NCBI GenBank assembly: GCA_949296305.1
Contig: CASFOT010000022.1
Coordinates: 1-39,765 of the forward strand
Source of the DNA: an uncultured Erysipelotrichaceae bacterium
GTDB lineage: Bacteria > Bacillota_I > Bacilli_A > Erysipelotrichales > Erysipelotrichaceae
DNA: 39,765 nucleotides
Direction of reading: 5' to 3'
Below, piece after piece: positions 10,060 to 33,153 of this stretch (its first letter is position 1; each line of letters starts with the position of its first letter). A program made the position numbers and the translations under genes. The notes beneath the pieces are model-generated. The model saw only the letters and a list, made by a program, of their open reading frames with translations, did not search any database and was not told the DNA's origin.

Positions 10060-10193
10060 ATGGGTGAGGAACGATGTTTTGTTGCGTGCTTTGCTTTTTG
10101 TCATCCGTTCTTACGATCCACCTCATACCGTGACAGTACCCGCCGAGTCTTTCGATCACTGTCAACCTCGTCAACCCTGTAGGTCCAGGCGCT
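10060..10193 (-). ncRNA. glmS ribozyme (glucosamine-6-phosphate-activated self-cleaving RNA)
   Basis: Reading the minus strand: AGCGCC at the cleavage site (cut expected between A at 10193 and G at 10192), a short CCTG/CAGG stem, the conserved GTTGACGAGG, then TGACAGT pairing with ACTGTCA around ATCGA and CGGCGGGT. This is the order and sequence of the conserved glmS ribozyme core. A peripheral domain follows, ending in CCTCACC near 10062. Glucosamine 6-phosphate acts as the cofactor, and cleavage destabilises the glmS message in Bacillus. About 175 nt separate its 3' end from the glmS start codon. Confidence 0.95.
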
Positions 10194-10199
10194 CATCAT
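10101..10199 (-). other. Short leader ORF across the glmS ribozyme core (32 codons)
   Basis: On the minus strand an ATG-ATG pair (10199-10194) opens a frame of 32 codons that ends at a TGA (10103-10101) and reads through the entire conserved ribozyme core. AGGAGG (10218-10213) lies 13 nt upstream, a long spacing. A GTG (10209-10207) is closer but opens only 12 codons. The second and third codons straddle the self-cleavage site. It may be chance; there is no evidence that the peptide is made. Confidence 0.2.
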
Positions 10200-10404
10200 C
10201 AGCAGTCACTTTCCTCCTTACTAACTGATAACTGTTCTATACTATGTCATAAAACAAAAAGAGATACAAGAAATTTTATATGAAATATAGATGGTTTTTA
10301 TAAAAAAAGATAAAAGTTTTCACACATTTTGAAACAAACTTAAGAAATATTTACAAAAAATGAGAAATTTATGAAAATAATGTTATTTGTTTGTGAGAAA
10401 CGCC

Positions 10405-27299: not shown

Positions 27300-29219
27300 A
27301 TGTATGATCATTTATTTACACCTATTCAAATTCGTGATCTAGAGTTAAAAAATCGAATCATTTTACCTGCAATGGGTACACGTATGGCAAACGAAAAAGG
27401 GGAAGTTACGGATCGTTTGATCGCTTATCATGCGGAAAGGGCAAAAGGGGGCTGCGCGTTAAATATCGTGGAAGTAGCAGCTGTCCATCGCCCGAGTTCC
27501 CCTGCACATTTTGTGTGGATCTGTGAAGATTCATTGATCGAAGGACATCGGAAATTGACCGATGCAATCCATGCACAAGGCGGAAAAGCAGGCATCCAGC
27601 TGTGGCAAGGCGGATTAGCTGTTTCGATGGACCCGAAAGCACAGGTATTGCTGCCATCTGATATGAATTTAGGCAAATACACCATACCAGGCATCAATAA
27701 AGAACAGATCAAAGAAGTGATTACTTGTTATGGAGAAGCCGCAAGACGAGCTGTAGAGGCAGGCTATGACTGCATTGAATTCCATCTGGCACACAATTAT
27801 CTGCCACACTCCTTTTTGAGCGGCGGACTGAACCATCGAGATGATGAATATGGCGGAAGCTTTGAAAACCGTTGTCGTTTCCCATTGGCAGTCATCGATG
27901 CCATACGGGCAAATATGCCGGAAACGATGCCGTTGTTCATCCGTATTGATGCTCATGATGATTTCTTGGAAAATGGATTGACGATCGAAGAAGTGATCGC
28001 ATTCTGCAAGATTGCAAAGGAACATGGGGTCGATGTCTTGGATGTATCGCGCGGCAATATCTTGACCGCAGCGACCATTTATGAAGTACCGCCGATCGAT
28101 CTGCCGCATGGGTTCAATATTGAAAATGCAAGCCGCATACGAAAAGAAACGGGCATGCTGACGATTGGCGTCGGACGGATCAATCATGCTGATTTTGCTC
28201 AATCCCTGTTGGCAGAAGATAAAGTGGACATGGTCGTCATGGGACGAGCACAATTAGCCGATCCGCAATTTGTGAATAAGGTAAAAGAAGGACGCATCAA
28301 TGATATCGTTCATTGCGTAGGTTGTAATCAAGGTTGTTATGATGGTTTTACCGATGTGATCAATCGACCGTTCATCACTTGTATGCGGAATCCGCAAATC
28401 GGGCATGAGGCTGAACATCGTTTTGAAAAAGCAAAGGATCCTAAGACCGTGTGGATCGTCGGCGGCGGTGTCGGCGGTATGGAAGCCGCAAAGATATTGA
28501 AGGAAAGAGGACATCATCCAGTCTTATTTGAAGCAAGCGATCATTTAGGCGGACAATTTATCATTGCAGGCCAAGCACCGGGAAAGAAAGAAATGAGCGA
28601 CGCGGCAATAGAGATGGGCGAGCAGACCTTGCGCTGCTGTGAAGTTCACCTGAATACGATGGTTACACCAGAAAAGATCAAAGAAGAAAAACCAGACAAC
28701 GTCTTGATCGCCATTGGTGCAGTACCGATCGATCTTCATTTTGCACACGAAGATCAAAAACATCATGTATTGGCAAATGATGTGTTGATGGGGAAAGAAG
28801 AGCTTCAGGGAAAAGTCGTTGTGATCGGCGGCGGTCTGGTCGGCTTAGAAGCAGCAGATGATCTGGCAAGCAAGGGATGTTCAGTGACCGTGGTGGAAAT
28901 GAAAGATGCGATCGGGGCAGATCTAGGTTCTTTGCGCAAAATTACCGTCATGATGAAGATGAAACAGCTGCAAGTAGAATTAAAGAGCGAATGCAAAGTC
29001 AGTGATCTCAATGAAGAGGGAATCGTTTTGGAAAGCGGAGAAATCATTCCTTGCGATCATGTCGTTTATGCGGTAGGTTCCCGATCATTGGACAGCACAT
29101 CACTTGTGGAAGCATGCAAAAGCTGCAACATTCCATATCAGATCATCGGTGATGCAAAGGCTGCCCGCCGGGCATTGAATGCAATCGAAGAAGGATATTA
29201 TGCAGCAATGGAGGTGTGA
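27300..29219 (+). CDS. Old Yellow Enzyme-type FMN/4Fe-4S/FAD oxidoreductase 1 (FadH/BaiCD-like)
   Basis: A 639-residue flavoenzyme of the 2,4-dienoyl-CoA reductase/enoate reductase type. TIM barrel (about 1-330) with FMN-site [10 protein letters not shown] and active-site [14 protein letters not shown], then [14 protein letters not shown]; Fe-S cluster cysteines 339, 342, 346 and 361; FAD and NAD(P) Rossmann folds with [12 protein letters not shown] (about 387) and [13 protein letters not shown]. The last cluster spacing is 14 residues against 11 in FadH. It should pass electrons from NAD(P)H to an activated C=C bond. Bile-acid enzymes BaiCD/BaiH share this layout, but so do many others, so the substrate is open. 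Confidence 0.9.
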
Positions 29220-29221
29220 GC

Positions 29222-31141
29222 ATGGCAAAGCTGTTTGAACCTTGGCAGATCAAAAGCATGCACTTAAAGAATCGGACCTTTATGGCACCGATGTCTTTAG
29301 GGTATGAAAGCCAAGACGGCTGTGTGAATGAGAAAATGATGGCATTTTGGCTAGAAAGAGCCAAACATGGTGTCGGCTGCATCATCATGGATGCAACCAG
29401 TGTAGATCCAAATGTTCCATACTTAGGCAATACGCTTTGTTTCAGAGATGAACAAAGCATAGAACGTTATCGTGCCTTTACCGATCAGGTCCATGCATAT
29501 GGATGCTGTATCATTCCGCAGATCACCCATCCAGGACCGGAAAGCATCAGTTCATTCTTCGGTGTTCCACCTATGGCACCAAGTGTTTACTTAAACTCCA
29601 TGGCCCAAAAGACCAGAGAACTGAAGATAGAAGAGCTGCCAGGAATCGTAGCCCAATATGCAAAAGCAGCAAAGCAGGCACAAGATGCTGGTTTTGATGG
29701 CATTGAGCTGCATTGTGCGCATGCTTATATGCTGTTAGGTTCTTTCTTGTCTCCGCTGCGCAATAAACGAATGGATGATTATGGCGGATCGTTGATGAAC
29801 CGTTCACGCTTATTATTTGAAGTGATCGATGCCATTAAAGATCTTTGTGGCCAAGATTTTCCGATCATCTTGCGTATGTCAGGCAGTGAACGAGATCCGC
29901 AAGGAAACACGATCGAAGATATGAAATGTCTGATTCCGCATCTGGAAGCACATGGCATTGATTGTTTTGAGATCAGCGGCGGTACGCAATATGAGCGATG
30001 CAACAAGATCATTCCTTGTCATGGCGAAGGGATGTTTACAAACTTAGAAGAAGCCCGCGAGATCAAAAAAGTTGCTGCGAAACCAGTTATAACCGTTGGT
30101 AAGATCTTGGATGCACAAATGATGAATGATGTCGTCGAACGAGGCGAGGTGGACGGCGTTGTGATCGGACGCGCATTATTGGCAGATGAGCAATTTGTCA
30201 GCAAAGCAGAAAAGCAGTTATATGAAGATATCGCGCCTTGTGCAGGCTGCGGAATCGGCTGTATCGGCGAACAGACCAAACGTCATCCTGCTTCTTGTGT
30301 GATCAATCCGCGGGCAGGAAGAGAAAATGAACTTGTCTGGACAAAAGCAAGCAACGTTAAACGAGTGCTTGTGGTAGGCGGTGGTATTGGCGGATTGAGT
30401 GCAGCCTATGTTTTAGCAAAGCGCGGCCACCAAGTGACCTTAGTTGAAAAAGAAGACCAGCTGGGTGGACAGATGCGTTTGGCATGCCGTGCACCGCATA
30501 AACAGGAATTATCAAAATGGATGGTCTATCTGCAGCATGAATGCAAGAAATATCCGATCGACTTGCGGTTGAACTGTGAAGCGGATCCTTCATTGATCGA
30601 AACATTAAAACCGGATGCAGTGATCTTATCAACAGGAGCTTCTCCGCAGTTTCCACCATTTGCTGCAGAAGACAGTATAAGTGCACATGATGTTTTGATG
30701 GAACGTGTATCGATTCCTGGCGGCCATGTAGCAATCATCGGCGGCGGTATGGTAGGAATCGAAACTGCAGAATATCTGATGGCGAATGCACGCGGACCTA
30801 TGCAGGTAACGATCTTGGAGATGAGTGCTCAAGCAGGAACAGGAATGGTTCCAAACAACCTTTTACCGACCATGCAGCGTCTTCATAAGGAAGGTGTCCG
30901 CATCTATACGAATACTAAAGTTTTGAGCGCAGATCCTTCCGGCGTGAAGGTTGAAATCGCTGGTGTTGAACAGATATTGACCGGATTTACGCAGATTGTC
31001 TACGCAACTGGTGTCCAATCACGGTCTGCACTGGCAAAGTCATTATCTCATGATCACGTTTATGTGATCGGGGATGCTCATTCCCCTGCACAAGCGTTGG
31101 AAGCAGTTCGTGATGCATTTGAGATCGGCATGAAATTATAA
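29222..31141 (+). CDS. Old Yellow Enzyme-type FMN/4Fe-4S/FAD oxidoreductase 2
   Basis: A 639-residue paralogue of the preceding enzyme. TIM barrel with MAPMSLGY and [16 protein letters not shown], then [14 protein letters not shown]; Fe-S cysteines 340, 343, 347 and 359 with the standard x2-x3-x11 spacing; FAD/NAD folds [21 protein letters not shown] and [16 protein letters not shown] start it at ATG 29222, seven nt after GGAGG, rather than the in-frame GTG six nt upstream. It begins 2 nt after its neighbour's stop. The two differ clearly around the active site (HNYLPH against HAYMLL), so they probably act on different substrates or positions. Confidence 0.9.
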
Positions 31142-31262: not shown

Positions 31263-33098
31263 TTATTTCTGATAATAATCTTTTAAGAAGTTCTCTTTAT
31301 ATTGTTCAAATGTGCCATCAAGGATCGCTGCACGTGCTTCTTCGGTCAATCGGATGATAAAACGAAGATTGTGCATGGATGCGAGATTGAAATATTTTTC
31401 GTGATCTTTTGGATCACTTGATTTTAACAGGGCTCTAAGCTGTCCTCTGGTCCATCCGGCTTGACAGGTCGGACAATCGCAGCCTTCTTCGATGAGCTCA
31501 TTGCTGTCGGTAAATTTTTTGATGGCGATGTTGCCATGCCGCGTATAGATCCGGCCGTGTCTTGCTTCTCTGGTCGGGGCAACACAGTCAAAGGTATCCG
31601 CACCCATTTCGGTACCGATCAAGATATCATCTGGATGAGATAAGCCTAATAAATGCCGTGGTTTTCCTTCTGGAAGTTCTTCACAGCACCAACGCAGGAT
31701 CTCTCCTAAGCTTTCTTTCAAGAAAGCGCCGCCTAGCCCATATCCATCAAAATCCATCTTTGCAAGCTTCTTGGCAGTCGATCGACGAAGATCTTCCCAT
31801 CGTCCCCCTTGCAGGACTCCATAGAGCGATTGATGATAGCCCAGATCATCACAATGTTTTTTATGATACTTCAAACTTCGCTTTGCCCAACGCTCGGTAC
31901 GTGCTAAAGCCTCTTTATTATATTCATAGGTATCTGCTAATGATGTCAGTTCATCATAAGCCATGTGGATGTCTGCACCGATGCGGCATTGAATTTCCAT
32001 CGATTCTTTTGGACCGATGAAATCATCCTGATCAGTAAATGGATCATGGAACTGCACGCCGTCTTCACATACATGCGCCAAACGTTCTTCTTTTTCTGCA
32101 TTGACGATATTCCGTTCTTTTTCCATGCTGACAACCTTTCCGCATCCCGATCCTAAAGACATGACCTGAAAGCCGCCGGAATCGGTCAATGTCGGACCGT
32201 TCCAGCCAGACCATTTAGCTAAACCGCCTTGCTTTGCAATTTCTGGCGAAATATTACGCAGATGATAACCGTTGCTGAGCATAGCCTGCGCTTGGATCGA
32301 TTTCAGATCGTTCATCGATAGGTAACGCACTTCCCCATGTGTGCCAACGGTCATGAATGCAGGTGTTTTGATATCGCCATGCGGGGTATGGATGATTCCG
32401 GCACGTCCTAGCTTGCCTGGAATCTTCTTTGTGATCTCAAAGCTGAACTGATTGTTGTTCTGATATTCTGTTAAATATGGGTGCAGTTTCTTTGCTATCA
32501 AAGCTTCTATCGGCGATAAGATGATTTCAAAGCTAATGCCCAATAGATAAGCAAAGACTGCCTGTATTAAAAATGCCTGCAATGGAAGCACGCCTAAGAA
32601 AGCAATCGTTTCGAAGATGGCTGAATCGATGATATGTGCAAAAACAGAAGAACCAAGCGCACGAGCAATAAAGCTCTTGCGGAAACAGTTTCGGCCATTG
32701 CGCATACGTATAAAAAGATAGTTATTCATGAAATTGGAGCATACATAAGCAGCAAGCGAGGCAAAGATGATGCGCGGTGTAAAGCCGACCACGTTTGTAA
32801 AAGCTTCTTGCAATTGCCAGTCTGGATACTGCGGCAAAGCGATGACGATATAAAATACCGCAATTGCCAGCAAGTTGACCAAAAAACTGGCCCAGATGAC
32901 ATTTTTGGCAATTCGCTTTCCATAAAATTCTATAATTAGATCCCCAATAATATAAGTAAGCGGAAAGACCACGACACCCCCATCTACAGCGATGCCAAAA
33001 AAATCCCATAACTTGATAGCAGCTATGTTTGATATGAGTAGCGTTCCTGCAGAGATTGCTGCAAAATAAATCAGTGTTCGTTGTTTTAAATTTGACAT
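31263..33098 (-). CDS. tgt: Fusion of VUT/YhhQ queuosine-precursor transporter and tRNA-guanine transglycosylase
   Basis: One 611-residue frame with two complete domains. Residues 1 to about 212 are a VUT-family (YhhQ/COG1738) permease with about six helices (VVVFPLTYIIGDLIIEFYGK; ALGSSVFAHIIDSAIFETIAF). From about 216 it is bacterial Tgt: FMTVGTHGEVRYL, LTDSGGFQVMSL, nucleophile Asp504 in ADTFDCVAPTR, zinc ligands Cys540, Cys542, Cys545 and His576. Tgt exchanges the wobble guanine in GUN-anticodon tRNAs for a 7-deazaguanine. The base-recognition loop reads GLGGAFLKESLGE, unlike the canonical GGLAVGE, and Cys545-His576 is longer than usual. The start is ATG 33098: a stop lies five codons upstream and no other Met occurs before 124. 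It has no ribosome site. Confidence 0.93.
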   Translation of the reverse strand: MSNLKQRTLIYFAAISAGTLLISNIAAIKLWDFFGIAVDGGVVVFPLTYIIGDLIIEFYGKRIAKNVIWASFLVNLLAIAVFYIVIALPQYPDWQLQEAFTNVVGFTPRIIFASLAAYVCSNFMNNYLFIRMRNGRNCFRKSFIARALGSSVFAHIIDSAIFETIAFLGVLPLQAFLIQAVFAYLLGISFEIILSPIEALIAKKLHPYLTEYQNNNQFSFEITKKIPGKLGRAGIIHTPHGDIKTPAFMTVGTHGEVRYLSMNDLKSIQAQAMLSNGYHLRNISPEIAKQGGLAKWSGWNGPTLTDSGGFQVMSLGSGCGKVVSMEKERNIVNAEKEERLAHVCEDGVQFHDPFTDQDDFIGPKESMEIQCRIGADIHMAYDELTSLADTYEYNKEALARTERWAKRSLKYHKKHCDDLGYHQSLYGVLQGGRWEDLRRSTAKKLAKMDFDGYGLGGAFLKESLGEILRWCCEELPEGKPRHLLGLSHPDDILIGTEMGADTFDCVAPTREARHGRIYTRHGNIAIKKFTDSNELIEEGCDCPTCQAGWTRGQLRALLKSSDPKDHEKYFNLASMHNLRFIIRLTEEARAAILDGTFEQYKENFLKDYYQK

Positions 33099-33104
33099 GA
33101 ACGC

Positions 33105-33113
33105 ATTATATCA
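33105..33113 (-). promoter_or_regulatory. Extended -10 promoter giving a leaderless transporter-Tgt mRNA
   Basis: On the minus strand TGATATAAT (33113-33105) is a perfect extended -10. Only six nt separate it from the ATG at 33098, so the transcript would begin at or within a base or two of the start codon. No Shine-Dalgarno sequence lies upstream. A second -10-like TATAAT sits about 14 nt further up and would give a leader of some 14 nt, also without a ribosome site. Confidence 0.6.
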
Positions 33114-33153
33114 TAAATTATAAGAAAAGCGCAGGATTATTTTTTTATGTATG

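Follow-up and report, generated by a model that had tools for sequence, protein, structure and literature searches.

Does a single protein of an uncultured, Merdibacter-like Erysipelotrichaceae bacterium both import a queuosine precursor and insert it into tRNA, which base would it use, and would import and insertion need to be coupled? These questions are raised by a 39,765-nt stretch of DNA (the window), in which an earlier reading made from the letters alone (the sequence-only reading) had claimed one uninterrupted frame at 31263-33098, of unstated strand, encoding a complete YhhQ permease followed by a complete tRNA-guanine transglycosylase (Tgt) with its nucleophile Asp and zinc ligands. 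We put the probability at roughly three in four that this frame encodes a salvage module on one chain, of the same kind as QPTR-Tgt fusions already known. In the mechanism that we propose, an N-terminal six-helix transporter would import a 7-deazaguanine base, a cytosolic Tgt domain would swap this base for guanine 34 of GUN-anticodon tRNAs, and the inserted base would be the end product. Fusion would guarantee co-production and the membrane location of Tgt, and direct hand-over of the base would be possible but not needed. We infer the activity, substrate, and topology of the fusion from the comparisons below.

Frame, domains, and predicted expression signals of the fusion

The claimed frame was borne out: it lies on the minus strand, begins with an ATG at 33098, ends with a stop codon at 31263-31265, and has no internal stops (Table 1). 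Pfam matched Vut_1 (PF02592) to residues 39-199 (2.6e-38; 132.2 bits against a cut-off of 27.2) and TGT to residues 231-609 (4.2e-104), both domains being complete in one open frame as in a QPTR-bTGT fusion, and the NCBIfam models TIGR00697 (queuosine precursor transporter; 107.8 bits) and TIGR00430 (Q_tRNA_tgt; 336.7 bits) exceeded their curated cut-offs of 50.95 and 306.75. With six transmembrane segments, the PF02592 and TIGR00697 matches place the first half among QPTR/COG1738 transporters; TIGR00430, the nucleophile Asp, and the zinc site place the second among bacterial Tgt (Q34) enzymes. Alignment to Zymomonas Tgt matched the DSGGFQ motif, the second Asp (DELT), the nucleophile (FDCV), and the zinc ligands (CDCPTC...HN). 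An AlphaFold2 model from 53 aligned rows had a mean pLDDT of 90.3 with both domains complete, and the best Foldseek matches were Zymomonas Tgt structures (TM-score 0.93 over the target). The permease and Tgt are thus as complete as had been claimed. In the model, the TM6 helix ends at residue 209 and the first Tgt strand begins at 219, so the linker comprises only ~9 residues. Hydropathy and the positive-inside rule, a simple hydropathy/charge approach rather than a dedicated predictor, gave six hydrophobic segments with an N-in/C-in arrangement; as the transporter C-terminus is predicted to be cytosolic, Tgt is predicted to lie on the cytosolic side. A sequencing or assembly error hiding a stop was ruled out by full-length orthologous fusions in seven other family genomes, which are 74-88% identical and keep the domain order and linker, and the fusion is therefore neither chance nor a sequencing error.

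Table 1. Features of the fusion gene and its flanks, in window coordinates.
Feature	Residues	Coordinates	Strand	Basis
QPTR (YhhQ)-Tgt fusion, single ORF, 611 aa		31266..33098	minus	Domain matches and orthologues
Transporter half	~1-209	32472..33098	minus	Vut_1 match, hydropathy, AlphaFold2 model
Linker (TEYQNNNQF)	~210-218	32445..32471	minus	Alignment of relatives and AlphaFold2
Tgt half	215-611	31266..32456	minus	Pfam, NCBIfam, structure comparison
Inserted region (SGCGKVVSMEKERNIVNAEKEERLAHV), ~22-24 aa longer than canonical Tgt	~317-343	32070..32150	minus	
Base-pocket motif GGAFLKES (canonical GGLAVGE / GGTSVGE)	457-464	31707..31730	minus	
Extended -10 TATGATATAAT, whose 3' end lies 6 nt upstream of the ATG; transcription predicted to start at the ATG		33099..33115	minus	
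Terminator-like hairpin and T run directly after the stop codon		31226..31253	minus	

The fusion mRNA is predicted to be leaderless, and the terminator-like hairpin just past the stop codon suggests a single-gene transcript. An extended -10 element, TGNTATAAT, ends 6-8 nt, and mostly 6, upstream of the ATG in most Erysipelotrichaceae yhhQ or yhhQ-tgt genes; it was seen upstream of yhhQ in the window and in L004-L010, L012-L025, and L058, and two Saccharibacteria have the same layout. These starts have no Shine-Dalgarno sequence and thus form a conserved leaderless start; within the window, the fusion gene is the only ORF of at least 180 aa arranged in this way. Two relatives (L027 and L030) have no yhhQ beside tgt; a TATAAT box immediately precedes the tgt start, an arrangement in which the former yhhQ promoter might now drive a leaderless tgt. 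At Rfam thresholds, no preQ1 riboswitch was found upstream of the fusion in the window, and the only Rfam element to pass was a glmS ribozyme at 10060-10204 (minus strand; 49 bits, above the gathering threshold). Nearby, at 27300-31141 on the plus strand, two large ORFs of 639 and 641 aa are adjacent and overlap; on inspection of their sequences, both resemble NADH:flavin oxidoreductases and would belong to one family, that of the Old Yellow Enzyme/2,4-dienoyl-CoA reductase type.

A divergent Tgt subtype and its probable substrate

Judged by its motifs, the Tgt half is not of the canonical bacterial type, a point missed by the sequence-only reading. First, ~35 residues separate DSGGFQ from the following G[VI]xF, compared with 13-15 in canonical Bacillota enzymes; residues 318-328, within this insertion, form the sole low-confidence stretch of the AlphaFold2 model. 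Second, the pocket contains DEL where canonical enzymes have DEC, with Leu replacing Cys. Insertion-type Tgts combine a long stretch (~35-48 aa) from DSGGFQ to G[VI]xF with a GGA[FLI][LE]K motif, and the window Tgt has both. The two features occurred together in all 95 non-redundant rows of the insertion type and never in the 19 canonical rows, all of which had other, mostly GGTSVGE-like, pocket motifs. Besides Erysipelotrichaceae, insertion-type Tgts were found in three groups, with identities to the window Tgt of 62-76% for most Saccharibacteria, 44-51% for Actinomycetota, and 54-55% for two archaea of the Methanobacteriaceae. The canonical Zymomonas mobilis and E. coli Tgts share the fold, nucleophile Asp, and zinc ligands with the window enzyme (~34% identity) but lack the insertion, have a GGLAVGE and DEC pocket, and are free soluble enzymes in organisms with the full Q pathway.

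The known pocket signatures do not assign the window Tgt a base. Queuine-using bTGTs have a GG[LS][AS]G pocket and preQ1-using bTGTs a GGLAVG pocket (PMC11570991), and GGAFLK fits neither. The enzyme thus differs from the queuine-specific Chlamydia type by its pocket, and from the preQ1-specific canonical type both by its pocket and by the missing QueA, QueH, and QueG. Chlamydia trachomatis and Bartonella henselae, which salvage with tgt only, likewise combine Tgt and QPTR without QueA/G/H, but as separate proteins with GG[LS][AS]G or GGLAVG pockets (PMC11570991). Given this divergent insertion/GGAFLK subtype, preQ1 handling cannot be assumed.

The window assembly (1.9 Mb, 156 contigs, 85.8% complete) has exactly one Tgt locus and one Vut_1 locus, and QueA, QueH, QueG, and a true QueC were not found in it. 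Across the assembly, the absence of these four supports the salvage suggested earlier from the immediate gene neighborhood, no second tgt was present, and the sequence evidence supports a bifunctional import and insertion protein in a salvage-only organism. The nearest named relative, Candidatus Merdibacter merdigallinarum (L056), has a Tgt that is 93% identical and also fused. We profiled QueA, QueH, QueT, QueG, and QueC in 40 family genomes, a set picked to span canonical-Tgt and Tgt-less members as well as fused and unfused ones. QueA was present in 0/27 insertion-type and 10/10 canonical-Tgt genomes, and both QueH and QueT in 0/27 and 9/10; QueG was found in none of the 40. Weak QueC matches (at most 33 bits) in 36 of the 40 genomes, in frames of mostly ~400 or 517 aa, were assigned to other PP-loop enzymes. 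Among 35 further named genomes with insertion-type Tgt, QueA was found once, in a Saccharibacteria MAG, where it lies on a contig of 4.7 kb. Canonical-Tgt family members therefore seem to salvage preQ1 and complete Q on their own, whereas insertion-type members would insert a base not further processed by known enzymes and probably final.

This base is probably queuine, in which case Q would be made in one step. We favor queuine over preQ1, by inference from the absence of maturation genes and from the prediction of queuine salvage for most Actinomycetota, made because they lack QueA and QueG/H (PMC11130926). A less likely though still serious possibility is that preQ1 is imported, inserted, and left unprocessed, as proposed for B. 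henselae, whose tRNA holds preQ1 even though its genome has only tgt and QPTR (PMC11570991). The missing QueA, QueH, and QueG would fit this alternative, as would the reported transport of preQ1 by a Bifidobacterium breve transporter clustered with tgt (PMC11130926) and the insertion-subtype Tgt (GGAIEK) of another member of the Bifidobacteriaceae, Alloscardovia (L130). The window pocket, however, lacks the preQ1-type GGLAVG and has Leu for the canonical Cys, and the Actinomycetota predicted to salvage queuine share its Tgt subtype.

Probable repeated fusion and the question of hand-over

Among 146 family genomes surveyed, full-length fusions were found in three of genus g1 (G000, G040, G082), four of g50 (G050, G087, G111, G132), and one of g30 (G075); many others have an unfused Tgt that is 71-83% identical. 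Mapping the fused label onto the Tgt tree takes three changes, a number that starred branches force, and a single clade of fused proteins was rejected (AU p 0.028); fusion therefore probably arose two or three times independently, and a single origin is disfavored, one gain followed by later splits being a less likely alternative. In 392 sampled Bacillota genomes, Vut_1 matches over the cut-off in frames of at least 600 aa occurred only with insertion-type Tgt, all others being in frames of at most 339 aa. A 607-aa canonical-Tgt frame (G069) proved on inspection not to be a transporter fusion.

The Erysipelotrichaceae Tgts form one clade (100/98) that is nested inside the Saccharibacteria rows (98/95, 99/92). 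This nesting suggests that tgt was transferred from one group to the other, in either direction; because a Saccharibacteria clade was not rejected by the AU test (p 0.234), we do not assert which. Five Saccharibacteria (L077, L079, L080, L089, L097) have an insertion-type tgt without adjacent yhhQ in similar surroundings, so that the gene looks resident there: judged from the ORF sequences, a TrpS-like gene lies upstream in four of the five, and genes for an AI-2E-family-like permease and a CysS-like protein lie downstream. In Holdemanella biformis (L020/L088), the gene for an MFS-like permease, possibly a replacement transporter, ends just upstream of tgt, at the position of yhhQ in relatives. 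Archaea are known for archaeosine, not queuosine. Overlapping yhhQ-tgt pairs encoding the bacterial-type, insertion-type Tgts noted above nevertheless occur in Methanobrevibacter filiformis (L094:1843-3733) and a Methanobacteriaceae MAG (L092:1792-3733), both without QueA. Quite tentatively, a mobile one-step module for queuine use, comprising QPTR and insertion-type Tgt and often leaderless in Erysipelotrichaceae, may have spread among Saccharibacteria, gut Erysipelotrichaceae, and Methanobrevibacter, replaced a QueT-Tgt-QueA-QueH preQ1 route, and given rise, through several fusions, to an enzyme in the membrane that inserts the base into tRNA right where it enters the cell.

At the level of sequence, the two domains, their one frame, the absence of those pathway genes that were searched for, and the history of their junction are evident. 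Most relatives with the unfused 71-83% identical Tgt have yhhQ directly upstream, and in most such pairs the stop codon of yhhQ overlaps the tgt start (e.g., ATGA) or directly adjoins it, with the Shine-Dalgarno sequence inside the end of yhhQ. The EYQNNN of the fused linker corresponds to the free-Tgt N-terminus M-T-E-Y-K-N-N-N of relatives, and the former start Met is Leu (TTA, ~residue 209) in the window gene. Shine-Dalgarno-like matches of 5 nt or more were present at the old start in 16 of 18 free tgt genes, the other two being L027 and L030, and a convincing one was present in none of the eight fusions. We propose that overlapping or abutting genes fused by loss of the Tgt start region and a change of frame.

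Does fusion then serve to pass the base directly to Tgt at the membrane, as the sequence-only reading had suggested? Our comparisons do not support this. A congener of the window organism (L010:1492-3288, in G040:C5; genome 99% complete) has the same fusion with an intact Tgt half that is 91% identical to that of the window and a heavily diverged transporter half that is 41% identical and ~14 residues shorter. This half keeps 21 of 48 conserved positions, compared with 45-48 in every other aligned sequence, yet has no stop or frameshift. These features fit a transporter domain whose transport function has become unnecessary, in a frame held open for access to Tgt: if Tgt can be reached only through the upstream frame, this frame must stay open despite decay, which supports full-length translation. 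Between the window gene and that of L004, dN was low in both halves, 0.15 for the transporter and 0.04 for Tgt, at saturated or near-saturated dS, the saturation that makes dN/dS not computable for most pairs. Several relatives have an insertion-type Tgt and no Vut_1 gene at all, and on this evidence some lineages can do without transport through the fused domain. Substrate channelling, in which the fused transporter would deliver the base straight into the Tgt pocket and fusion would be functionally essential, is therefore improbable in our estimate. The short linker, the predicted cytosolic placement of Tgt, and repeated fusion in the family are in keeping with channelling; the combination of a decayed transporter with an intact Tgt, however, argues that hand-over is not essential, the two proteins are separate or the transporter missing in most relatives, and repeated fusion needs no channelling because coupled overlapping or abutting genes readily fuse by one small indel. 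Fusion may simply fix co-production.

Still less credible is translation of free Tgt from an internal start as the main product, with the upstream frame incidental: an ATG persists at the old Tgt start in three of the four g50 fusions and in the g30 fusion, but in all three g1 fusions, those of the window and of its two congeners, this position is Leu, the eight codons preceding the Tgt domain contain no ATG, and a Shine-Dalgarno sequence is missing, so that the separate start raised as a concern in the sequence-only reading is rejected for the window lineage, and the frame left open across the decaying transporter half is as expected if Tgt is reachable only by read-through.

Relation to known fusions and meaning for the family

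The suspicion that such fusions were already in the literature was correct: section 2.2 and Table S1 of PMC11130926 report QPTR-bTGT fusion proteins in which a PF02592 transporter and a bacterial Tgt, the two families seen here, share one polypeptide chain. They appear there only within a transporter search, and that paper is not known to describe the Tgt subtype, repeated origin, or loss of the internal start. The architecture is thus not new, and the insertion-type Tgt, repeated fusion, and decaying transporter are added detail. The yhhQ/QPTR and tgt genes of Actinomycetota and Saccharibacteria encode the same Tgt subtype, without QueA bar the one exception above, but are unfused in the loci examined. 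On this aspect of Q salvage, our literature search found no paper that covers Erysipelotrichaceae, Saccharibacteria, or Methanobrevibacter.

One gut family thus appears to have two ways of living on the queuosine of other organisms: a preQ1 route using QueT, canonical Tgt, QueA, and QueH, and an end-use route using QPTR and a divergent Tgt without maturation enzymes. With a single gene, the fusion offers a test object for telling queuine from preQ1 as the substrate of a Tgt subtype that also occurs in actinobacteria, CPR bacteria, and a few archaea, and this substrate bears on competition for queuine between the host and its gut microbes.
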